A DNA stretch of 64,000 bases. Origin: Bacillus sp. (in: firmicutes). GTDB taxonomy: Bacteria > Bacillota > Bacilli > Bacillales > Bacillaceae. Of this stretch, positions 11,502 to 64,000 are shown in pieces; position 1 is the first letter of the stretch, and each line of letters begins with the position of its first letter. The stretch lies in assembly GCA_031180805.1 (NCBI GenBank), contig JAPSLL010000016.1, positions 1 through 64,000 of the forward strand, in the 5' to 3' direction. Under the pieces are notes generated by a model. The model was not told the DNA's origin and ran no database searches. It saw nothing but the letters and a program-made list of their open reading frames with translations. The translations under genes were made by a program, and so were the position numbers.

Positions 11502-12959
11502 ATGACAAATGAAGTAAGGGTGCGTTATGCTCCTAGTCCAACGGGTCATTTACATATTGGAAATGCAAGAACGGCATTATTTAATTATTTATTTGCAAAA
11601 AATCTTAATGGAAAATTCATTGTTCGAATTGAAGATACCGATAAAAAGCGGAACATTGAGGGTGGTGAGCGAAGTCAATTAAAGTACATGAATTGGCTTG
11701 GAATCACTTGGGATGAAAGTGTAGATATTGGCGGGGAATATGGGCCATATCGTCAATCGGAGAGAAATGATATCTATAAGAAATACTATGAGGAACTACT
11801 TGAAAAAGATTTAGCATACAAATGCTATTGTACGGAAGAAGAGCTTGAAAAGGAACGGGAAGAACAAATGGCTCGCGGTGAAACACCACAATATTCCGGG
11901 AAGCATGCCCATTTAACGAAAGAAGAGCAGGATGAGCTCGAAGCAAAAGGTTTACCATACAGTATACGTTTCAGAGTACCTGCTAACAAAGAATATCGTT
12001 TTAACGATATGGTTAAAGGTGAAATTGCATTTGAATCAGAAGGAATGGGCGATTTCGTTATTGTGAAGAAGGATGGAACGCCAACCTATAATTTCGCAGT
12101 AGCAGTAGATGACCACTTAATGAAGATTTCTCATGTCTTACGTGGTGAGGATCATATTTCAAATACACCGAAGCAAATAATGATATATGAAGCATTTGGT
12201 TGGGAAGTACCAGTCTTTGGACATATGACACTTATTGTAAATGAAAATCGAAAAAAATTGAGTAAGCGTGACGAGTCCATTATACAATTTATTGAGCAAT
12301 ATGAAGAGCTAGGCTATTTGCCAGAAGCGCTGTTTAACTTTATTGCTTTACTAGGCTGGTCTCCTGGTGGAGAAGAGGAGCTATTTAGTCAAGCTGAGCT
12401 TATTGAACGTTTTGATGCAGCACGATTATCAAAATCACCAGCTGTGTTTGATACCCAAAAGCTTGCTTGGATGAATAATCAATATATTAAACAATTAGAT
12501 AACGATGCTCTTGTTAGATTAGCTTTACCTCATTTAATTAAATCTGGAAAAGTATCTGAAAATATGAGTGAGGAAGAAAAGGAAAGAATTAACCAATTAA
12601 TTACACTTTATCAGGAACAAATGAGTTATGGGGCAGAAATTGTAAGCTTAACAGAATTGTTCTTTAAAGAAGAGATTTCTTATAATAGAGAAGCAGAATC
12701 AGTTCTTGAGGGAGAAACGGTCCCTGAAGTATTGAAAGCATTTGTGAGCGAATTGGAAGGCATAGAGAAGCTATCTGATGAAAATGTAAAGGCTGCTATT
12801 AAGGCGGTACAAAAGGCGACTGGTCAAAAGGGTAAAAATTTATTTATGCCAATTCGTGTTGCGATTACAGGTCAAACACATGGGCCAGATTTACCAAAAT
12901 CAATAGCTATCTTAGGAAAAGAGACTGTTATTTCAAGATTAAAAAATGTTATTAGTTAA
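11502..12959 (+). CDS. gltX: Glutamyl-tRNA synthetase
   Basis: [27 protein letters not shown]. Confidence 0.98.
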
Positions 12960-13004
12960 CTTTTTTTGAAAAATGTAATATAGTAATGGTAATCATATAA
13001 GGTA

Positions 13005-13277
13005 AAGCGATGAAAAGGAGAGTAGGGTTTTACTTCCTTATTAGAGAGAACCTCCATTGGCTGAAAGAGGTTTATGTGAAGTAATGCTTGAAATGCACCT
13101 TTGAGCCTTTTTCTAAACGTCTTGAATTTGGATTAGTAAGGGAAAGCGTGTTGCTCTGCGTTAAAGAGTGAAAGTTGAGGTGATCGGGCTAGCAAAAAGA
13201 GTGCTGCTCATCCCTAAACAGAGTGGAACCGCGCCCTTGAAGCGTCTCTGTACATTGATACAGAGGCGCTTTTTTTA
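13005..13277 (+). promoter_or_regulatory. T-box leader (Cys) of cysE-cysS
   Basis: GGCTGAAAG and gaaaTGCacctttgag specifier region (TGC 13094-13096), T-box-like gagtggaaccgcg (13221-13233), terminator agcgtctctgta/tacagaggcgct+T7. Confidence 0.88.
13241..13277 (+). terminator. T-box terminator
   Basis: agcgtctctgta-cattga-tacagaggcgcttttttt. Confidence 0.9.
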
Positions 13278-13322
13278 ATTCTTACGCAATGTTAAAGGTT
13301 ATTGTTGGTTTAAGGCACTTTG

Positions 13323-13447
13323 GTGATTGGAGTGGAGGACCCTGAGTCTCCTGCTTAGAGAAAAGTGTCAATGGGAGACCCCACAGTCGGTTGCGCTAAT
13401 GGAGCACGGACCGTCATCGGAAAGGAATGCCTGAAGCGGAAATCAAC
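13323..13447 (+). repeat. MITE-like/palindromic Bacillus intergenic repeat
   Basis: gtgattggagtggagga...gagtctcctgc...gggagaccccacag...cggaaa...tgaagcggaaatcaac; recognised pattern, ends TGATT/AATCA. Confidence 0.65.
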
Positions 13448-13545
13448 AACCATGTTTAACAGAGCAAATTCTTGAAAAAGCTTAATAAAAGTAGTCCTTG
13501 TTAAAAAAGTATAGTCAAACGATCAAAGTGATAGGAGGGAAATAA

Positions 13546-14241
13546 ATGTTTAAAATGATGAAGGAAGATGTCGATGTTATATTTGATCAGGACCCTGCAG
13601 CAAGAAGTTATTTTGAAGTTATTTTAACTTATTCTGGTTTACATGCGATTTGGGCACATCGAATTGCACATGCATTTTACAAAAGGAAACTATACTTTTT
13701 AGCAAGACTAGTTTCACAAATTAGTCGCTTTTTTACAGGAGTTGAAATCCATCCTGCAGCAAAAATTGGTCGCCGGTTCTTTATCGACCATGGCATGGGA
13801 GTCGTAATAGGAGAGACTTGTGAAATAGGTGATGATGTAACAGTGTTTCAAGGTGTTACATTAGGTGGAACAGGTAAAGAAAAGGGGAAAAGGCATCCTA
13901 CTATTAAAGACCATGCATTAATAGCAACTGGTGCAAAGGTACTAGGCTCGATTACTGTAGGTGCTTATTCTAAGATAGGAGCCGGTTCAGTTGTTTTAAA
14001 GGATGTTCCAGATCATTCAACAGTTGTTGGAATTCCGGGTCGAGTGAAGGTGCAAAATGGTCGGAGAGTCGACCAAGACTTAAATCATTGTGACTTGCCG
14101 GATCCAGTGGCAGATCGTTTTAAAGAGCTAGAGGCAGAGTTATCGAGATTGAAATTTGAAGTGCAACAGTTAAGGAAAGGAAAGAATGAACATGACAATA
14201 AAGTTGTACAATACGCTAACGAGGCAAAAAGAAACGTTTGA
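13546..14241 (+). CDS. cysE: Serine O-acetyltransferase
   Basis: hexapeptide repeats, [24 protein letters not shown]. Confidence 0.96.
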
Positions 14242-15589
14242 ACCCCTTGAACAAGGCAAGGTAAAAATGTATGTATGTGGTCCAACTGTCTATAACTATA
14301 TCCATATCGGAAATGCAAGGCCTGCAATCGTCTATGATACAGTACGTCGGTATTTAGAATATCGTGGTTATGAAGTAAATTATGTATCTAATTTTACAGA
14401 TGTTGATGATAAATTAATAAAAGCTGCAAATGAGCTAGGGGAGGATGTCCCAACAATTGCAGAGCGATTTATTGAAGCCTATTTCGAGGATGTTGCAGCA
14501 CTTGGCTGCAAGCAGGCAACAGTTCATCCACGTGTTACAGAAAGTATCGATATTATTATAGACTTCATCCAAGCTTTAATTGATAAAGGATATGCTTACG
14601 AAGCGGGTGGAGATGTTTACTATAAAACGAGAGAATTTAAAGAATATGGAAAGCTATCACATCAGTCGATTGATGAGCTACGTTTAGGAAATCGAATTGA
14701 AGTTGGTGAAAAGAAACAAGATGCCTTGGATTTTGTCCTTTGGAAAGCTGCAAAAGAAGGGGAAATTTCGTGGGAAAGCCCTTGGGGTAATGGGCGCCCT
14801 GGTTGGCATATTGAATGTTCAGCAATGGCGAAGAAATATTTAGGTGATACGATTGATATTCATGCTGGTGGCCAAGACTTAGCGTTCCCACATCATGAAA
14901 ATGAGATTGCTCAATCAGAGGCGCTTAACGAGAAACCATTTGCTAAATATTGGATGCACAACGGATATATCAACATAAATAATGAAAAAATGTCTAAATC
15001 ACTCGGGAATTTTGTATTAGTACATGACATTATTAAAGAGATTGATCCACAAGTTGTGAGATTTTTTATGCTATCTGTTCATTATCGACACCCAATTAAT
15101 TTTTCGCAGGAATTGCTAGAAAGTACACAAAATGCGTTTGAACGATTAAAAACTTCATACATGAACTTACAACATCGAAAAGATAGTAGTAATAATTTAA
15201 CAAATAATGATGAAGACTGGTTACAAAAAATCTCTGAAGCGCAAACGCAATTTCAAACAGAAATGGATGATGATTTTAACACGGCAAATGCCATTTCTGT
15301 CCTTTTTGATTTAGCTAAACATGCTAATTACTATTTAGAGGAGCAAAATACTTCTGAAAATGTGATCCAGACATTTCTTGATGTATTTGATCAATTGGGA
15401 GAAGTGCTAGGTGTTAAATTTGCAGAGGTAGAGCTTTTAGATGCCGAAATCGATGAATTAATAAATCAACGGATTCAAGCGAGAAAGGATCGTAACTTCG
15501 CATTAGCTGATGAAATTCGTGAAAAATTGAAGGGAATGAACATTATCCTAGAAGATACTCCACAGGGTACAAGATGGAAGCGGGGGTAA
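14186..15589 (+). CDS. cysS: Cysteinyl-tRNA synthetase (start may be 14192)
   Basis: [25 protein letters not shown]. Confidence 0.98.
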
Positions 15590-15740
15590 TGGATTACTTT
15601 TTGATTTATTAGGGTATAAAGGAAATAGAAACTAAAGTCCATTTACTTTATATGAAATACGGCAAGCATTTCGGGCACTCGTTTAATTGTTGAGATGTGC
15701 GGTATGCTTGTCAGGGCTTTAAAAAGAAAAGAGGAACTAA

Positions 15741-16148
15741 ATGTTTTTAGATTTAGAACAAATTAAAGATTCAAAGCTATTAAATAGCTTAGCCTTAGCG
15801 TATATTGGCGATGCTGTTTATGAGATCTATGTTAGGCATCATCTCCTTGCAAATGGTAATGTTCGTCCAAACCAGCTTCATAATTTAGCAAAAAAATATG
15901 TTTCTGCTAAAGCTCAAGCTAGCATTTTACATCATCTGTCAACACAAGGCATATTTTCTGAGGAAGAGGAAGCGGTCATTAGGCGCGGGAGAAATGCGAA
16001 GTCTGGAACGGTACCAAAAAATACTGATGTCCAAACATACCGATATAGCACTGCCTTTGAAGCCCTTATCGGATATCTATATTTAGAAAAAAGACATCAA
16101 CGCCTAGAAGAAATCATTCAACTTGCTCTTCAATTCATTAAATCATAA
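15741..16148 (+). CDS. mrnC: Mini-ribonuclease III
   Basis: [19 protein letters not shown]; between cysS and rlmB. Confidence 0.95.
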
Positions 16149-16165
16149 GGAAAGGAGGAGGGCTT

Positions 16166-16909
16166 ATGGAACAAGATTATATTATTGGGAGAAATCCTGT
16201 TATAGAAGTGTTAAAATCCTCCAGAGATATTAATAAGATATGGGTTGCTGAAAATTCATTAAAGGGACAAGCTCAGCAAATAACGAAGCTTGCAAAAGAA
16301 AGAGGAATTACCATTAATTTTGTCCCGAAAAAAAAGATTGACCAAATGGTTGAAGGAAATCATCAAGGTGTTGTAGCACAGGTTGCAGCATATGAATATG
16401 TTCATGTTGACGATATTTTATCAGCAGCGGAAAAAAAGGGAGAGGCACCGTTTATATTGCTTCTTGATGAATTAGAGGATCCACATAATTTAGGCTCAAT
16501 CATGCGAACAGCTGATGCAGTTGGTGCGCATGGTATTATTATTCCAAAAAGGAGATCAGTGGGATTAACAGCAACAGTTGCTAAAGCATCTACTGGTGCA
16601 ATCGAATATATTCCAGTCGCTCGTGTAACGAACTTAGCTAGAACAATCGAGGAATTAAAGGAACGTGGTGTTTGGATCGTTGGAACGGATGCTAAGGGCG
16701 CAGATGACTACCGAAACCTAGATGGGAAAATGCCGTTAGCACTTATTATTGGAAGTGAAGGCAAAGGAATTGGAAGACTAATTAAGGAAAAATGTGACTT
16801 TCTCATTAAAATGCCTATGGTTGGGCATGTTACATCGCTGAATGCATCGGTGGCTGCTAGTCTTTTAATGTATGAGGTATACCGAAAGCGACACCCACTA
16901 GGGGAATAG
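16166..16909 (+). CDS. rlmB: 23S rRNA 2'-O-methyltransferase RlmB-like (SPOUT)
   Basis: DELEDPHNLGSIMRTADAVGAHG, GSEGKGI. Confidence 0.95.
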   Translation: MEQDYIIGRNPVIEVLKSSRDINKIWVAENSLKGQAQQITKLAKERGITINFVPKKKIDQMVEGNHQGVVAQVAAYEYVHVDDILSAAEKKGEAPFILLLDELEDPHNLGSIMRTADAVGAHGIIIPKRRSVGLTATVAKASTGAIEYIPVARVTNLARTIEELKERGVWIVGTDAKGADDYRNLDGKMPLALIIGSEGKGIGRLIKEKCDFLIKMPMVGHVTSLNASVAASLLMYEVYRKRHPLGE

Positions 16910-55137: not shown

Positions 55138-55530
55138 TTGGCACAGGTTCAATATTACGGTACTGGTCGTCGTAAAAGCTCTGTAGCTCGTGTACGTTTA
55201 GTACCAGGCGAAGGCCGTATCGTTGTAAATAATCGCGATGTAAAAGATTACATCCCATCAGCTGCTTTAATCGAAGATATTAAACAACCATTAAACTTAA
55301 CTGAAACTGCAGGTAGCTACGATGTTCTTGTAAATGTTTCAGGTGGTGGATATGCAGGCCAAGCAGGCGCTATCCGTCACGGTATCTCTCGTGCTTTATT
55401 AGAAGCAGATCCAGAATACCGTGCATCACTTAAACGTGCAGGTTTATTAACTCGTGACGCTCGTATGAAAGAACGTAAAAAATACGGTCTTAAAGGCGCT
55501 CGTCGTGCACCTCAGTTCTCAAAACGTTAA
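55138..55530 (+). CDS. rpsI: 30S ribosomal protein S9 (TTG start)
   Basis: [20 protein letters not shown]...[17 protein letters not shown]. Confidence 0.99.
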
Positions 55531-55545
55531 TTACTGGCGTTTCAA

Positions 55546-55581
55546 AGGCTCTTTTCACTTATGTGGAAAGGGTCTTTTTTA
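55546..55581 (+). terminator. rpsI terminator
   Basis: ctcttttcacttatgtggaaagggtctttttt. Confidence 0.8.
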
Positions 55582-55642
55582 TTTGCGAAAATAGCTTTTG
55601 ACTAAGGATGCGATATTGACCACACGTGGCCACATTTCATGC

Positions 55643-55770
55643 TCAATGTACTACTGAAATTTTTTGCGCAGTTTGTTCTTTTATAAGGTCTGTAACGTGT
55701 GTATATACGTTCATTGTCATTTCAATATCGGAATGTCTTAATCGTTCCTGAACCTCTTTAAGCACTAGCC
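55643..55770 (-). pseudogene. Tyrosine recombinase (phage/ICE integrase) C-terminal relic
   Basis: Reverse strand reads LKEVQERLRHSDIEMTMNVYTHVTDLIKEQTAQKISVVH*, the integrase box II with catalytic Tyr. Confidence 0.82.
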
Positions 55771-55990
55771 CTCGCCTCTTGGATTATTTTCCATAATGAA
55801 GATTATTCAAAGAAACAAATATTGGACAAACGTAGAAGTAAATTAAAAGGGGAACAATAATAAAGCTTTAAAATGTAACATTCTAAAAGAACAATGTGTC
55901 ACTCCATTTAATATTTAGGAGTGCAGGCAATGCGCTAGAAAGTTTTACGGCCTGAGAGAACACTTTTATATGGAAATCATAACAAGAACA

Positions 55991-56029
55991 CAAAGATAGC
56001 CGTGCAGCATCCTTGTACGGCTATCTTTG
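55991..56029. terminator. Strong hairpin caaagatagccgt/acggctatctttg
   Basis: 13-bp perfect arms in an otherwise non-coding stretch; probably terminator of a lost gene. Confidence 0.5.
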
Positions 56030-56268
56030 TGGCTTTACAGAAGGTCTCATATCTTTTAAAAAAATATAAGTTTTTCATCACATTCACAGTTTGGTAATGA
56101 TTAGATAAGATTGCTTTATTCGATATTTTGATATAGAACGACCTGTTCAATCAGCTATCGTCTTCTCGGTGATTTTCCTATTGAGGGAGGCAAGTAAAAT
56201 TGCCCTTGCCTCTATTAACGTTTTAATAGAGGTGACGATATTAGAAATACCTTATAGAATGTCTAAAA

Positions 56269-56296
56269 AAAAGTGACCGTTGCAACGGTCACTTTT
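56269..56296. terminator. 28-bp perfect palindrome; terminator-like on the minus strand
   Basis: AAAAGTGACCGTTGCAACGGTCACTTTT with flanking A-run (T-run on -). Confidence 0.5.
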
Positions 56297-56344
56297 CAGC
56301 GAATTGTCTTTTATATTGTGTGTTAGTATTTTTATCAGGGAGGC

Positions 56345-57841
56345 ATGGAGATGAGTTCAAATTGTAACCGTGAACAAGATTTGTTACTGTTTCTTTCAAA
56401 AAATCAAGGTTATGTTACTTCAAAGGATCTCCTAGAAGTACTAAATGTTTCTCAAAAAACAGTATATCGTTTAATAAATAAAATTAACAACGAGTGCGTG
56501 GACAGCCCTTTAATTATATCTGAAAGGGGGAGAGGGTATAAACTCGATTACGAAAAATTTATTAATTATCAAAAAAACAATAATAAATACAAAGAAATAC
56601 AATTTTCCCCTAATGAGAGACGTAAACGAATTATGGAAGAACTATTGTTGTCTTCGCCTAAACCTATAAATGTTTACCACTTATTTAGTCATTATCATGT
56701 AGGAGACTCCGTTGCTTTTAATGACGAACAGATAATGAGCGAAGAGCTTAAAAAATACAATTTAGTTCTAGAGCGAAAAAATAGAACACTTGCCATACAA
56801 GGGGATGAAGTTAATATTCGAAAGGCCATTAAGGATATTATTGAAATCTTTAATACGATTGATATCGATGATTTAAAAAGGAATCAAGAACTTAGTTTCA
56901 ATCAGTACGATGTTTTGTTTATATTGGATCAATTAAGAAAGATTGAAGAAGATTTAGATATAACAATTCCCTATCCATATAATGTAAACATTTTCTCGCA
57001 TCTATATATACTACTAAGTCGCTCAAGAAAAGTTCCTACTAGGCTATTTACCGATAAGATTTCGATTGAAGAAATGGAAAACATGAAAAGAGATATTTTA
57101 TATCCGGTTGCAAAAGCTATTGTCCATAATATTGAAAAATATTTGAACAGTTCTTTGCCAGATATAGAGATTTACTTTCTTTATCAGTATTTAGTGTCAT
57201 CAAGAATGCAAGGATCTCTTGTTAAAACTTCGACTTTTTCATCAAAAGTTATCCAAGTAACAAAAGCATATATTGATGGGGTGAGTACTAGTTTAGGAAT
57301 TGATATAGACAGTCAATCCATTTTCATCGATTTAGCCAACCATATTAAACCGATGCTTAATCGATTAGAGCATAAAATTCGAGTTAATAACAGCTTGTTA
57401 AGTCAGATTAAGGTAACGTATGAAGAAGTATTTTTCAGTGTAACAAACGTGTCCGAATTGGTAAGTGGAAAATTTAACTTACCAGCCATAAATGACGATG
57501 AGAATGGGTTTATCACCCTATACTTTGCAAAAGTGATAGAAACGGGCCAATATCAACGTCCAATAAAAACATTAATCATGTGTACGACAGGAATTGGAAC
57601 TTCAGAACTTTTAAAGGCGAAAGTTTCAAAGAAGTTTCCCGAGTTAGAAATTGTTGATGTAGTAGCATCACGAAATATAAAAATGATAAAAGAGAAATAC
57701 ACAGATGCTGAATTGATCCTGAGTACTGTTCATATTAAGGAAGAAGTACCCATTCCTTATTTATTAGTGAGTGCGATGTTTACAATTGATGACCAGAAGA
57801 GACTTCAGGGAAAGATAGAGGAAATTTATCATGGAGATTAA
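56345..57841 (+). CDS. LicR/MtlR-type PRD transcriptional activator (HTH-PRD-EIIB-like)
   Basis: N-terminal HTH, PRD-like FSHLYILLSR and IDLANHIKPMLNR, EIIB-like LIMCTTGIGTSELLKAKV. Confidence 0.88.
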   Translation: MEMSSNCNREQDLLLFLSKNQGYVTSKDLLEVLNVSQKTVYRLINKINNECVDSPLIISERGRGYKLDYEKFINYQKNNNKYKEIQFSPNERRKRIMEELLLSSPKPINVYHLFSHYHVGDSVAFNDEQIMSEELKKYNLVLERKNRTLAIQGDEVNIRKAIKDIIEIFNTIDIDDLKRNQELSFNQYDVLFILDQLRKIEEDLDITIPYPYNVNIFSHLYILLSRSRKVPTRLFTDKISIEEMENMKRDILYPVAKAIVHNIEKYLNSSLPDIEIYFLYQYLVSSRMQGSLVKTSTFSSKVIQVTKAYIDGVSTSLGIDIDSQSIFIDLANHIKPMLNRLEHKIRVNNSLLSQIKVTYEEVFFSVTNVSELVSGKFNLPAINDDENGFITLYFAKVIETGQYQRPIKTLIMCTTGIGTSELLKAKVSKKFPELEIVDVVASRNIKMIKEKYTDAELILSTVHIKEEVPIPYLLVSAMFTIDDQKRLQGKIEEIYHGD

Positions 57842-58280
57842 TTCAATCTATCAAGTTTATTTTAATTGTGAGTTAAAAACAAAAGAAGAAGTACACTCTT
57901 TTATCTCTGAAATCGTATGTCAGGATAATCCTACGCAAAAAGCGGAAGTCATCAATCAATTAAATGAAAGAGAAAAAGTAGGCAGCACATTAATCGCTGA
58001 ACATGTGTTGTTGCCTCATTTCGAAAGCAAGCAAATAAAGAAGAGTCAAATTCTATTAATTCGGTTAGCCAATCCAATCCGTTCATGGGATTCCCAGACA
58101 AAGGATATCCGTTTATTGATTGTTATTATATTAAAGGAAAATGAAAGCGTTCAAATAAAGAAGGAAATAGCCTTATTCACCCGCTCTTTAGCAGATGAAG
58201 AGTATTTAGATCGATTATTGAACAGTCGTGAAAAAGAAAGCTTTATTAAAGAAATTTTAAAAAAACAGGAGGAAAAATGA
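57831..58280 (+). CDS. PTS EIIA (fructose/mannitol-type) domain protein, regulator-associated
   Basis: VGSTLIAEHVLLPHFES; overlaps regulator by 11 nt in another frame. Confidence 0.75.
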   Translation: MEINSIYQVYFNCELKTKEEVHSFISEIVCQDNPTQKAEVINQLNEREKVGSTLIAEHVLLPHFESKQIKKSQILLIRLANPIRSWDSQTKDIRLLIVIILKENESVQIKKEIALFTRSLADEEYLDRLLNSREKESFIKEILKKQEEK

Positions 58281-58597
58281 TGAAAATAGTAGGAGTTGCA
58301 GCATGCACAGTTGGGATCGCACACACGTATATCGCACAGGAGAAATTAGAGAATGCCGGAAAGAAAGCAGGCCATGAAATTCATATTGAAACACAAGGAA
58401 CGATTGGAACAGAGAATGAACTGACTCAAAAACAGATCGATGAAGCAGACATCGTTATCTTAGCTGTAGACGTTAAAATCGCAGGAAGAGAACGTTTTGA
58501 AGGGAAGAGAATCATCCAAGTTTCGACAGAAATAGCTGTAAAATCACCAAATAAATTAATTGAAAAAGCGGTAGAAGTTGTAAACCAAAAGAAATAA
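58277..58597 (+). CDS. PTS fructose-family EIIB component
   Basis: MKIVGVAACTVGIAHTYIAQEKLE. Confidence 0.9.
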   Translation: MMKIVGVAACTVGIAHTYIAQEKLENAGKKAGHEIHIETQGTIGTENELTQKQIDEADIVILAVDVKIAGRERFEGKRIIQVSTEIAVKSPNKLIEKAVEVVNQKK

Positions 58598-58624
58598 TTT
58601 AGCCATCAAAAATAGGAGGGGAAT

Positions 58625-59080
58625 ATGATGGAAGTAAAAGATATTGTCGATATAAATACAATCAAAACCAACATAAATGTTAAAAGCAAGGAAGAAGCCA
58701 TCCAAGAATTAGCAGAGGTGTTGCTACAAAATGAATACATTACAGATATTAAAGAGTTTTTAAAAGATATCTATGCTAGGGAAGCAGTGGGACAAACTGG
58801 AATCGGAAATTATATTGCGATTCCTCATGGTAATAGTCATTCTGTAAAAAAAATAGGAGTAGCAATTGGAATTACACAGAAAGAAATCCCTTGGGAGACA
58901 CTCGATGGGAAAGGTGTAAAGGGGATCATACTTTTTGCTGTGGGAAAAGAAAATGATGGATCACAACAACATCTAAAATTATTATCACTATTTGCAAGAA
59001 AATTGGGAAACGATGAAGTCGTTGAGAAAATGCTACAGTCGAAAGATGCTGAAGACGTGAAAGATGCTTTATGTAATTAA
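58625..59080 (+). CDS. PTS fructose-family EIIA component
   Basis: REAVGQTGIGNYIAIPHGNS. Confidence 0.92.
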   Translation: MMEVKDIVDINTIKTNINVKSKEEAIQELAEVLLQNEYITDIKEFLKDIYAREAVGQTGIGNYIAIPHGNSHSVKKIGVAIGITQKEIPWETLDGKGVKGIILFAVGKENDGSQQHLKLLSLFARKLGNDEVVEKMLQSKDAEDVKDALCN

Positions 59081-59109
59081 AAAGACTTTTAGTAATAGGG
59101 GGGGTAAAA

Positions 59110-60204
59110 ATGAGTAAAATAAAAAATTTAAATCTTAAAGGTCATTTATTGACGGCAATTTCATATTTAATTCCAATTGTGTGTGGTGCAGGTTTTTTAA
59201 TCGCAATTGGTATGGCTTTTGGAGGTACTAGTCAAGGCACATTAGTACAAGGTGAATTTTCCATTTGGGATGCTTTAGCAACTATGGGTGGGGCTGGCTT
59301 AGGTTTGCTACCTGTCGTTATATCTACAGGGATTTCTTATTCAATTGCAGGAAAACCAGGAATCGCTCCAGGTTTTATAATTGGTTTAACTGCTAATGCA
59401 ATTGGTGCTGGATTCATTGGTGGGATTTTAGGAGGTTACTTATCGGGTTATCTTGCTGTAGCTGTTTTAAAACATGTTAAAGTTCCTAGCTGGGCTAAAG
59501 GATTAATGCCTACTTTAATTATTCCATTTTTGACCTCTATTATTGGTGGATTAATCATGGTTTATATTATCGGTATCCCGGTCGCTGCTTTTACATCGTT
59601 ATTAACAAATGCATTAAACGGTTTAGGGTCTTCTTCATTGTTAGTATTTGGTGCAATTATAGGTTTATTGAGCGGAGTAGATTTTGGTGGGCCCATTAAC
59701 AAGACGGTATTTGCCTTTGTATTGACAATACAGGCAGAAGGAATTAATGGACCTATTACAGCCTTACAATTAGTAAATACAGCAACACCTATTGGATTTG
59801 GGTTAGCTTACTTTATAGCAAAAATGTTTGGTAAAAACATCTATACACCAGTAGAAACTGAGGCTTTGAAATCGGCAGTTCCAATGGGTGTTGTTAATAT
59901 TGTTGAAGGTGTTATTCCGATTGTTATGAATGATATTGTTCGTTGTGTAACGGCAGTAGCGATTGGTGGAGCGGTAGGTGGTGCCGTAACGATGGTGTTA
60001 GGAGCAGATGCAACTGTCCCATTTGGTGGCGTATTGATGTTACCAACGATGTCTCAACCATGGACAGGAGCTGTAGCCATATTAGTGAATGCTCTTGTAA
60101 CAGGGATAGCTTTGGCATTGCTTAAGAAAAATGTGAGTCTAGAAGATGAGCGAGTAGAAGTTGAAGAGGAAGACATTGATTTAGATGATATTCAAATTAT
60201 TTAA
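59110..60204 (+). CDS. PTS fructose-family EIIC component
   Basis: LLTAISYLIPIVCGAGFLIAIG, GVDFGGPINKTVFAF. Confidence 0.92.
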   Translation: MSKIKNLNLKGHLLTAISYLIPIVCGAGFLIAIGMAFGGTSQGTLVQGEFSIWDALATMGGAGLGLLPVVISTGISYSIAGKPGIAPGFIIGLTANAIGAGFIGGILGGYLSGYLAVAVLKHVKVPSWAKGLMPTLIIPFLTSIIGGLIMVYIIGIPVAAFTSLLTNALNGLGSSSLLVFGAIIGLLSGVDFGGPINKTVFAFVLTIQAEGINGPITALQLVNTATPIGFGLAYFIAKMFGKNIYTPVETEALKSAVPMGVVNIVEGVIPIVMNDIVRCVTAVAIGGAVGGAVTMVLGADATVPFGGVLMLPTMSQPWTGAVAILVNALVTGIALALLKKNVSLEDERVEVEEEDIDLDDIQII

Positions 60205-60246
60205 GCAAGATGCAAGTGAAATGAAATGTTAGGGTGCTGAAAATGT

Positions 60247-60318
60247 AAACGCATCAATACTTTAGGGCTGGTTGATGGGGAGACGACAAACCCTACTATT
60301 GTTTCTAAAGAAAAAATA
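60247..60318 (+). pseudogene. Relic of transaldolase / fructose-6-phosphate aldolase (FSA/TalC-like) N-terminus
   Basis: KRINTLGLVDGETTNPTIVSKEKI; matches family ...LGLVDGVTTNPT..KE. Confidence 0.65.
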
Positions 60319-60344
60319 ACGGTTTTGTGGAGGAGAAACAGATT

Positions 60345-61034
60345 ATGAGAAAAGTAGAATTTTCACCATCATTGATGACAATGGACTTAGATAAGTTTAA
60401 AGAACAAATCACTTTTTTAAACAATCATGTAGACTCTTATCATATTGATATTATGGATGGGCATTATGTTCCTAATATTACATTATCACCATGGTTTATC
60501 GAAGAAGTACGAAAAATAAGTGATTTACCAATGTCCGCCCATCTTATGGTAACGGATCCAAGTTTCTGGGTTCAACAATTAATTGATTTAAAGTGCGAAT
60601 GGATTTGCATGCATGCAGAAGTACTTGATGGTTTGGCTTTTCGATTAATTGATCAAATACATGATGCTGGATTAAAAGCAGGGGTAGTATTAAATCCAGA
60701 AACGCCAATTGAAACGATTTTCCCTTATATTGAATTAGTAGATAAAATTACAATTATGACAGTGGATCCAGGGTTCGCTGGGCAACGTTTTATCGAAAGC
60801 ACCCTAGATAAAATTGTAGAATTAAGAAAACTAAGAGAAGAAAAAGGATATCAATATGTCATTGAGATGGATGGATCATCTAGTCGGAAAACATTTAAAA
60901 GAATTGATGCAGCCGGTCCTGATATTTATATCGTAGGTCGTAGCGGTTTATTTGGATTAGATGAAAATATCGAAAAATCATGGGGAATCATGTGTAAAGA
61001 TTATGAGGACATGACTGGGAAAGTAATATCATAA
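60345..61034 (+). CDS. alsE: D-allulose-6-phosphate 3-epimerase-like (RPE superfamily, AlsE subgroup)
   Basis: HIDIMDGHYVPNITLSPWF, MTVDPGFAGQRFI, IEMDGSSS; resembles E. coli AlsE more than Rpe; start ATG 60345. Confidence 0.82.
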   Translation: MRKVEFSPSLMTMDLDKFKEQITFLNNHVDSYHIDIMDGHYVPNITLSPWFIEEVRKISDLPMSAHLMVTDPSFWVQQLIDLKCEWICMHAEVLDGLAFRLIDQIHDAGLKAGVVLNPETPIETIFPYIELVDKITIMTVDPGFAGQRFIESTLDKIVELRKLREEKGYQYVIEMDGSSSRKTFKRIDAAGPDIYIVGRSGLFGLDENIEKSWGIMCKDYEDMTGKVIS

Positions 61035-61104
61035 TAATTTAAAGGGACTGGGGTAAAACCCGCTATTGCGTCGAGAGGATGAACGTCGCATATTCCTCAA
61101 AAAA

Positions 61105-61147
61105 CATAAAAAAAGTGAAATCAACGGTGGATTTCACTTTTTTTATG
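61105..61147. terminator. Bidirectional terminator after alsE
   Basis: cataaaaaaagtgaaatc-aacggtg-gatttcactttttttatg. Confidence 0.88.
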
Positions 61148-61355
61148 TTTCAGAAGCTAATAACAGTGGAATTACGTTGTTAAACATAATCACCATTTAG
61201 AACTACTATCTATTGTTTGATAAATCCCTTTTAATTTTGACGACGATACATATATATAACGGGATATTATTTTATTGTGGTAAAAAATGCTAAACCTAGA
61301 TAGGACAAGAATTGTTTTGTTTCGTATTTCTTCATATTGTATATGTATATAGAAT

Positions 61356-61430
61356 AACGTGAAAAATACGGTGTTAAAGGCGATCTCACACACTCAATTC
61401 TCAAAACGCTAATGGTACGTTTCAAAGTCT
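61356..61430 (+). repeat. Degenerate duplicate of the rpsI 3' end (attR-like)
   Basis: aacgtgaaaaatacggtgttaaaggcgatctcacacactcaattctcaaaacgctaatggtacgtttcaaagtctc aligns with 55472-55551. Confidence 0.85.
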
Positions 61431-61457
61431 CCCAAGCTTTATGCTTGGGTTTTTTTA
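61431..61457 (+). terminator. Terminator downstream of rpsI duplicate
   Basis: cccaagctttatgcttgggttttttt. Confidence 0.88.
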
Positions 61458-61665
61458 TGTTTGAAAGTAGTGTTGACAATTTAGCTAATCATTTCAACCT
61501 TCTTCAGACTTTCATTCATTGGACCAGCTAAACTATTACTGTAATTTTTTCGCTATCTAGTATTTGTCTTGTTCGTTATTAGGAGAAGCTATCTTAAGCA
61601 GTCTTATTTTTTTATAAAAAACAATTCACCATTATTTTGGAAAATTTAATCTAGTAATTCGTTTA

Positions 61666-61800: not shown

Positions 61801-61830
61801 TCAAAAAGACAATAAAGGGAGATGGAGATT

Positions 61831-62661
61831 ATGGAAATAAGATATTCAACACACCCAGAGCAAGTAAAGGCATTTACAACAGAGGATATACGCAAGCATT
61901 ATCTCATCGAGGAATTGTTTGTACCAAATGAAATAAAGCTTGTTTATACGATGGAAGATAGAGCAATCATTGGTGGGATTACACCAACTACAGAAGCAAT
62001 CTCTTTAGAAGGCTATGATGAAATTAAAGCGGATTACTTTTTAGAGAGAAGAGAGGTTGGGATTTTTAATGTAGGTGGTCCTGGCAGCATTTCTGTAGAT
62101 GATGAGCAGTATCAAATGGAAAATAAGGATTGCTTATACGTTGGGTTGGGTAAAAGGGAATTATTGTTTTCTAGTGAAGCATCTGAAAATCCAGCAAAAT
62201 ACTATTTGTTTTCAGCACCAGCACATAAGGAGTATCCAACTCAGCACGTAGCATTCAAGGATGTTGAAGGAGACCGATTAGGATCACTTGAAAATGCCAA
62301 TGATCGTGTGATTAGAAGAATGATACATAATGAAGGAATCCAAAGCTGCCAGGTTGTGATGGGAATGACACAATTAAAGACGGGCAGTGTGTGGAACTCA
62401 ATGCCAACTCATACACATAATCGCCGTATGGAGGTATATCTTTATATCGATTTAGATGAACGATCAAGAATGTTTCATTTAATGGGAGAGCCAACAGAAA
62501 CAAGACATATTGTCATGAAAAATGAAGAAGCCGTTATTTCACCTCCTTGGTCAATTCACTGTGGAAGTGCAACGAGTAGTTATACATTTATTTGGGCAAT
62601 GGCAGGGGAAAACAAAACCTATAATGATATGGATGCCGTATCAATTGAACAATTACGCTAG
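61831..62661 (+). CDS. kduI: 5-dehydro-4-deoxy-D-glucuronate isomerase
   Basis: MEIRYSTHPEQVKAFTTEDIRKHYLIEELF, GGPGSISVD; alternate ATG at 61822. Confidence 0.95.
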   Translation: MEIRYSTHPEQVKAFTTEDIRKHYLIEELFVPNEIKLVYTMEDRAIIGGITPTTEAISLEGYDEIKADYFLERREVGIFNVGGPGSISVDDEQYQMENKDCLYVGLGKRELLFSSEASENPAKYYLFSAPAHKEYPTQHVAFKDVEGDRLGSLENANDRVIRRMIHNEGIQSCQVVMGMTQLKTGSVWNSMPTHTHNRRMEVYLYIDLDERSRMFHLMGEPTETRHIVMKNEEAVISPPWSIHCGSATSSYTFIWAMAGENKTYNDMDAVSIEQLR

Positions 62662-62830
62662 GTTAAAATAAATCCAAAGATCGGGGTCAATATAGAAGAC
62701 ATCTAAAGAATAAGAAAAATTCCTTTGATTTCATAATAGATAAAGAACGCATGAGCAGCATGAAAAGTCAACTCTATCTAATTAAGCCTTGAAATTACAC
62801 ATTTTAATTTGAAAGGTAAGGTAGATATTT

Positions 62831-63826
62831 ATGAAGATTATGAAGACGATTGAAAAAATCCCTGGAGGTCTAATGCTCGTTCCGTTGTTTCTCGGAGCTA
62901 TTATTCGTACACTTGCTCCAGAATCAGGGGAGTATTTCGGTTCATTTACAAATGGATTGATGACTGGAACTGTACCGATACTAGCTGTCTGGTTTTTCTG
63001 TATGGGTGCAGGAATTAACATTAAAGCAACTGGTACAGTATTAAGAAAATCCGGAACACTTGTATTGACAAAAATAGCAGTTGCCTGGTTAGTGGCAATT
63101 GTAGCGTCTCTGTTTATTCCTGATGGTGGTATTCAATCAGGCTTCTTTGCTGGATTATCAGTTCTTGCACTAGTGTCTATGATGGATATGACAAATGGTG
63201 GTTTATATGCTTCTATTATGCAACAGTATGGAACAAAAGAAGAAGCGGGTGCGTTTGTTTTAATGTCGCTAGAATCAGGACCATTAGTAACGATGTTAAT
63301 TCTCGGAACAACGGGGTTAGCTGCATTTGAACCACAGGCATTTGTCGGTGCTGTGCTACCATTTGTGGTTGGATTTATTCTTGGAAACTTAGATCAAGAT
63401 TTTCGTAATTTCTTTAGTAAGGCAACACATACGATGATTCCGTTCTTCGGATTTGCTTTAGGTAATACAATTGATTTAACTGTTATTGCACAAACGGGTC
63501 TTTTAGGAATCATTCTTGGAATTCTAGTGATTATTGTAACAGGAATACCATTAATGATTGCAGATAAATTTATTGGGGGAGGAAACGGTACAGCAGGGAT
63601 TGCGGCATCAAGTACAGCTGGTGCAGCGGTAGCAAACCCTATGATTATTGCTGAGATTAAACCTGAATTTCTTCCAGAGGCACAGTCAGCTACTGCATTA
63701 GTTGCTGCAGCTGTCATTGTTACATCGATATTAGTACCAATTTTAACAGCTTATTGGTCAAAGCATATGGATAAGAAGAATAAAAAGCCAGTTATAAAGG
63801 ATGAAAATAACGCTACTGTATTATAG
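62831..63826 (+). CDS. kdgT: 2-keto-3-deoxygluconate permease
   Basis: [23 protein letters not shown]; KdgT family. Confidence 0.94.
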
Positions 63827-63886
63827 CTTTATATGACAATATTATTTATGACGTAATACTGTCAACATTCGGGAGGGGTTTTTAAG

Positions 63887-64000
63887 GTGAGTAAAATTTT
63901 AACTGTAGGGGAACCGATGGCTTTATTTGTAGCAGAAAAGGAAGGACCATTGGAAGATGTTGAGCATTATAGTCGTTTTGTAGCAGGAGCGGAGGTTAAT
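63887..64000 (+). CDS. kdgK: 2-keto-3-deoxygluconokinase (partial, runs off window)
   Basis: GTG start after gggagggg; SKILTVGEPMALFVAEKEGPLEDVEHYSRFVAGAEVN, PfkB-like N-terminus. Confidence 0.85.
   Translation, partial: MSKILTVGEPMALFVAEKEGPLEDVEHYSRFVAGAEVN

Follow-up and report, generated by a model that had tools for sequence, protein, structure and literature searches.

Our results suggest with high confidence that 55.53-61.43 kb of the window (the 64,000 nucleotides analysed here, part of contig C58 of a 4.58 Mb genome) is what is left, in decayed and immobile form, of an island that a tyrosine integrase inserted at the rpsI 3' end. Insertion of this kind had been proposed in the preliminary description, and four observations support it: an integrase remnant, a right end shared with elements of relatives, a native terminator behind the distal copy of the rpsI tail, and a hotspot at this gene in half of the genus. 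The same description called the island mobile or formerly mobile; formerly mobile is sustained and mobile is not, since the integrase is reduced to 38 residues. The features on which this reading is based are as follows.

55138..55530, + strand: rpsI (30S ribosomal protein S9), intact, the target gene (ORF list; the rplM-rpsI region is 86-99% identical to genus relatives)
55465..55531, + strand: left-end att repeat, the rpsI 3' tail of about 65 nt (alignment of all tails)
55531..55583, + strand: element-borne terminator, now ending rpsI (same sequence class behind rpsI in G008, G009, G015 and G017)
55658..55771, - strand: C-terminal remnant of a tyrosine integrase, 38 aa, with the catalytic-Tyr motif NVYTHV, convergent with rpsI (tblastn)
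61234..61352, + strand: right end of the element (local match to the right end of the G015 element)
61353..61413, + strand: right-end att repeat, the degraded, displaced host rpsI 3' tail (79% identity, E 6e-10 genome-wide)
61413..61460, + strand: displaced native rpsI terminator (nearest to the rpsI terminators of empty-site relatives)

The rpsI tail, together with the approach to its terminator, is repeated in degraded form at 61353-61431 (79% identity, E 5.8e-10 in the 4.58 Mb genome). The local alignment of the two copies scored 77; rpsI against other window regions reached no more than 32, and 200 shuffles of 8 kb gave no score above 30. Both copies lie where they had been reported, although their true start is a few bases to the left of 55472/61356, and, as also reported, the second copy lacks a net 2 nt of its coding part and is out of frame. 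The second copy is no stray S9 paralogue, and no relative was found that has both copies and nothing between them. From 61.4 kb to the end of the contig, no further att copies were present. A tRNA-type att site was ruled out, as the window has no tRNA.

Distal copies of the rpsI tail were found in 10 of the 20 genus genomes with detectable rpsI, 1-17 kb downstream and with varying cargo between; G009 has up to three of them. Four genomes (G002, G016, G006 and G019) have empty sites. The conserved genes beyond the site are ybaK-cwlD-salA-gerD-kbaA-pdaB, which follow rpsI almost directly in G002 and G016. When all the rpsI tails were aligned, the distal copies shared nearly one start (AAAGAACGTAAAAAATACGG), whatever precedes it. 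An ordinary tandem duplication of rpsI, followed by loss of all but the 3' end of the second copy, could by itself yield a degraded gene end with no recombinase involved. We regard this origin as extremely improbable: in a genome-wide similarity search the distal copies of the ten genomes began within a few bases of each other (window positions 55465-55468) despite their different distances and cargo, integrases or their remnants adjoin rpsI, and the terminators are swapped as site-specific recombination predicts.

In support of this, the terminators of the two copies differ, as noted earlier, and they do so informatively: the native type stands behind the distal copy and the element type behind rpsI. 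The distal terminator aligned best with that of rpsI in the empty-site genome G019 (42/47 aligned identities, score 32), followed by those of G006 (25.5) and G002 (24), compared with 14.5 for the window's own rpsI terminator. Moreover, the class that now ends rpsI in the window was not found behind rpsI in the four empty-site genomes. Such an exchange of the sequences behind the stop codon is predicted by recombination inside the rpsI tail.

The integrase remnant (GLVLKEVQERLRHSDIEMTMNVYTHVTDLIKEQTAQKI) lies 127 bp past the rpsI stop. It is 76% identical (tblastn, E 3e-16) to the intact, 386-aa, rpsI-adjacent integrase of the genus relative G015, which it matches in position and orientation, and it matches the end of the PF00589 profile (Pfam, E 3e-4, below the gathering score). 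All six of the best-matching relatives that the G015 integrase has in other genera (46-74% identity) directly adjoin rpsI, so this integrase family appears to be specific for rpsI. At the other side of the island, the G015 element and one G009 element have right ends that matched the about 120 bp left of the distal copy (local score 64, z 12-16 for G015; z 7 for G009); elements of the other integrase class showed no such match at their right ends. Thus, judging from these similarities, both ends of the window island belong to one element class.

Between the att copies there is no full integrase. The Cro/CI and Xis HTH genes and the virE/DUF3987-type gene, present in G015, are absent from 55.5-61.4 kb (ORF list, Pfam). 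No relaxase or conjugation module was found, the long ORFs between the att copies all being PTS, regulator or epimerase genes (ORFs, Pfam, NCBIfam), and no phage-interference or packaging genes were seen among the ORFs (ORF list, Pfam). We discarded a phage origin of the element, as the nearest phage integrases are only about 40% identical and no viral-contig integrase exceeds 42%; the island is thus unlikely to be a prophage remnant.

In the history that we propose, an element that has since become extinct used its integrase to recombine its attP with the tail of rpsI. It would have brought its own S9 C-terminal codons and terminator, and for this reason rpsI was kept intact, while the host's rpsI tail and terminator would have been displaced 5.9 kb downstream. 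The cargo would have been a PRD-regulated fructose-family PTS with AlsE. Later, the integrase would have shrunk to its 38 residues, the recombination-replication genes would have been lost and the distal att would have decayed, and by these losses the island would have ceased to move by itself. Since no integrase is left, excision as a circle is predicted to be lost. The rpsI tail remains a usable target: the nearest relative carries a second, unrelated island there.

This relative, G008, is 99% identical to the window over rplM-rpsI. Its sequence is that of the window with about 6.5 kb added precisely at the rpsI tail, which is present twice; beyond the second tail the window sequence resumes, including the integrase remnant and the PTS genes. 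The inserted island (L031) encodes TIGR03693, a SagD-type YcaO, SagB and a ThiF-like protein, a thiazole/oxazole-peptide maturation cluster, and no integrase was recognisable in the about 6.5 kb between its two rpsI tails. Since G008 carries this other island at exactly the same point, the window is, by comparison of the two sequences, the natural empty site of the YcaO/SagB island.

Note that window positions 61240-61579, with the right att, are missing from G008, so that the right boundary rests on one genome. It is simpler to suppose that G008 has lost this segment by deletion. That these 340 bp were instead inserted later in the window lineage is very unlikely in our judgement: in G008 the base preceding 61240 is indeed joined directly to 61579, and the resemblance to the right end of the G015 element sets in near the 61240 breakpoint, but the segment holds the very parts expected at a right boundary (the element end, the host rpsI tail and the native terminator), and loss of a right repeat has a precedent in McRImecD-2 of Macrococcus (PMC5341023). 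A short stretch behind alsE, at 61160-61205 (AACAGTGGAATT...GTTAAA), seems inverted relative to G008.

Beyond the island lies the following block.

61822..64000, + strand: kduI-kdgT-(kdgK) block, beyond the att pair and separate from the island (Pfam/NCBIfam)

Insertion of this block by the same element was ruled out by its position outside the att pair, and the block was probably already in place when the PTS island landed. Its kduI is an extra one, with a 56%-identical copy elsewhere in the genome. From the distal att to ybaK, which in the window genome is found only near 68.0 kb, there are kduI-kdgT-kdgK, an IclR-type regulator and a SulP-type permease (the last two named by sequence inspection). 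The preliminary description expected rpsI to be followed, in relatives lacking the island, directly by the sequence after 61430; this holds only for about 45 bp of terminator, and beyond it the lineage-specific kdu-kdg genes precede ybaK-cwlD. The kduI-kdgT-kdgK and IclR-type regulator block, to about 65.8 kb of C58, is common to G008.

Inside the island, where G+C is lower (34.2% compared with 38.1% upstream), we found a six-gene cassette and its likely terminator:

56345..57841, + strand: PRD-domain transcriptional regulator, HTH-Mga-PRD-EIIB-like (Pfam, NCBIfam)
57831..58280, + strand: PTS EIIA, fructose-family, first copy (PF00359, E 3e-21)
58277..58597, + strand: PTS EIIB, fructose-family (TIGR00829, above cutoff)
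58625..59080, + strand: PTS EIIA, fructose-family, second copy (TIGR00848, above cutoff)
59110..60204, + strand: PTS EIIC, fructose-family (TIGR01427, above cutoff)
60327..61034, + strand: alsE, D-allulose-6-phosphate 3-epimerase (NF007266, 379 bits, cutoff 271)
61102..61150, no strand assigned: inverted repeat with 24-bp arms after alsE, likely terminator of the cassette (repeat search)

From these assignments, the PTS and AlsE would probably take up a ketohexose, for instance D-allulose, in the form of its 6-phosphate and convert this to fructose 6-phosphate. The cassette is patchy, with EIIC at E<=1e-60 in 15 of 300 genomes of the order. It lies at rpsI in G003 and G008 of the same genus and, with all six genes, in two other families of the order (G048 and G255 of family f14, G083 and G226 of family f3). 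In seven genomes (G289, G214, G327, G127, G244, G011 and G013) it is away from rpsI, and in G217, G192 and G056 rpsI and the cassette are on separate contigs. Across families the cassette is more alike than S9 and L13 (AlsE 87-92%, S9 72-78%), and its trees conflict with kinship, G289, from another family, grouping with the window. On these grounds the cassette is best described as horizontally spread. In G056 (L114) it stands directly behind groEL, in G013 (L117) it lies beside a different tyrosine-integrase remnant (PF00589, E 5.5e-10), and in some genomes it is followed by transketolase and transaldolase-like genes.

The PRD regulators of the cassettes at rpsI fall into two groups, one of the window and G008 and the other of G003 with G048, G255, G083 and G226 (one group, 100/99, separate from the window's). 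At least two arrivals of the cassette at rpsI are therefore likely. In G083 and G226, rpsI ends in a left-end terminator as in G003 and G032 (z 29-36), which is that of a second element class; this suggests that an island stood at rpsI there too, where no integrase or distal att remains. A suspected integrase remnant beside rpsI in G255 (DIAYVSKRIGHINSQTT...) was dropped (blast E 0.6, no Pfam integrase match). We put forward tentatively, as a possibility and not as our expectation, that the rpsI tail served as a shared docking site to which one cassette was delivered at least twice, in three families, by elements with different integrases.

We infer that the PTS genes of the window arrived with this very element, since they lie between two ends that match. 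We word this with caution because of the layouts in G003, G048, G255, G083 and G226, the missing element genes and the one-genome right boundary. The G003 cassette is distal to an att copy, with none on its far side; in the other four genomes the cassette is at rpsI without detectable att copies; and tandem accretion is plain in G009, G013 and G008. These layouts would suit accretion with swapping, in which a PTS-alsE cassette that was already there, or that came with a different element, was caught between another element's ends. We consider this unlikely, however, as both ends in the window are of the same element class, and as G011 and G013, whose cassettes are sisters to that of the window by the PRD gene, do not have them at rpsI, which favours arrival over long residence. 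Arrival with the element whose ends now flank the cassette thus remains our preferred reading.

rpsI is already known as an island site, and the window island is a new, decayed example. The Macrococcus resistance islands McRImecD-1 and McRImecD-2 are inserted at the rpsI 3' end with a tyrosine integrase adjoining rpsI; the 61-bp att core of their direct repeats, of which the end of rpsI forms part, is found also in Bacillus, and an int-regulator-xis layout of SaPI/PICI type was noted for such islands (PMC5341023). In streptococci, IMEs and ICEs with several tyrosine-integrase families, for example IMESag-rpsI, are inserted in 3' rpsI (PMC5357655, PMC5090054), and tandem accretion and decayed elements occur at this site (PMC5357655). 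As occurs with McRImecD, the window island lies at the rpsI 3' end between repeats that contain this end, the second being degraded here. The intact G015 element (L036; int, HTH, HTH, Xis-like, DUF3987) has the same layout as McRImecD, the McRImecD integrases being compared by description. An integrase gene at rpsI, typical of the McRImecD kind, is intact in G015 and six other genera, whereas the window retains the C-terminal remnant; and where McRImecD carries mecD, the decayed window island has a sugar PTS. With the streptococcal elements it shares the rpsI 3' target, accretion and decay, but a scan of the ORFs in the window island and in the G015 element revealed no relaxase or coupling-protein gene. 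The int-regulator-xis layout of the SaPI/PICI phage satellites is likewise that of the G015 element; unlike in those satellites, packaging or capsid-interference genes were not seen here. In the literature searched, we found no published account of rpsI islands in Metabacillus.

Islands at rpsI, known mainly for resistance genes and IMEs, are thus extended to a hotspot that half of a genus uses and that receives cargo for metabolism and defence (CBASS, restriction-modification) as well as of bacteriocin type. The site offers a natural series: empty in G002, G016, G006 and G019, intact in G015, decayed in the window and stacked in G008. The G015 element also carries two C5 methyltransferases, a type II restriction enzyme and an extra murA. 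In G032 (L042), a CBASS locus at 11933-16891 (SAVED endonuclease, CD-NTase, E1-E2, JAB) belongs to an rpsI island whose integrase, next to rpsI, is intact and which has a distal rpsI tail. Finally, shorter distal copies, which start only about 22 nt before the rpsI stop and run on into a common AT-rich stretch, were observed in G009 (L034, 19388-19425) and G013 (L038, 15179-15219); they are perhaps a third kind of element end.
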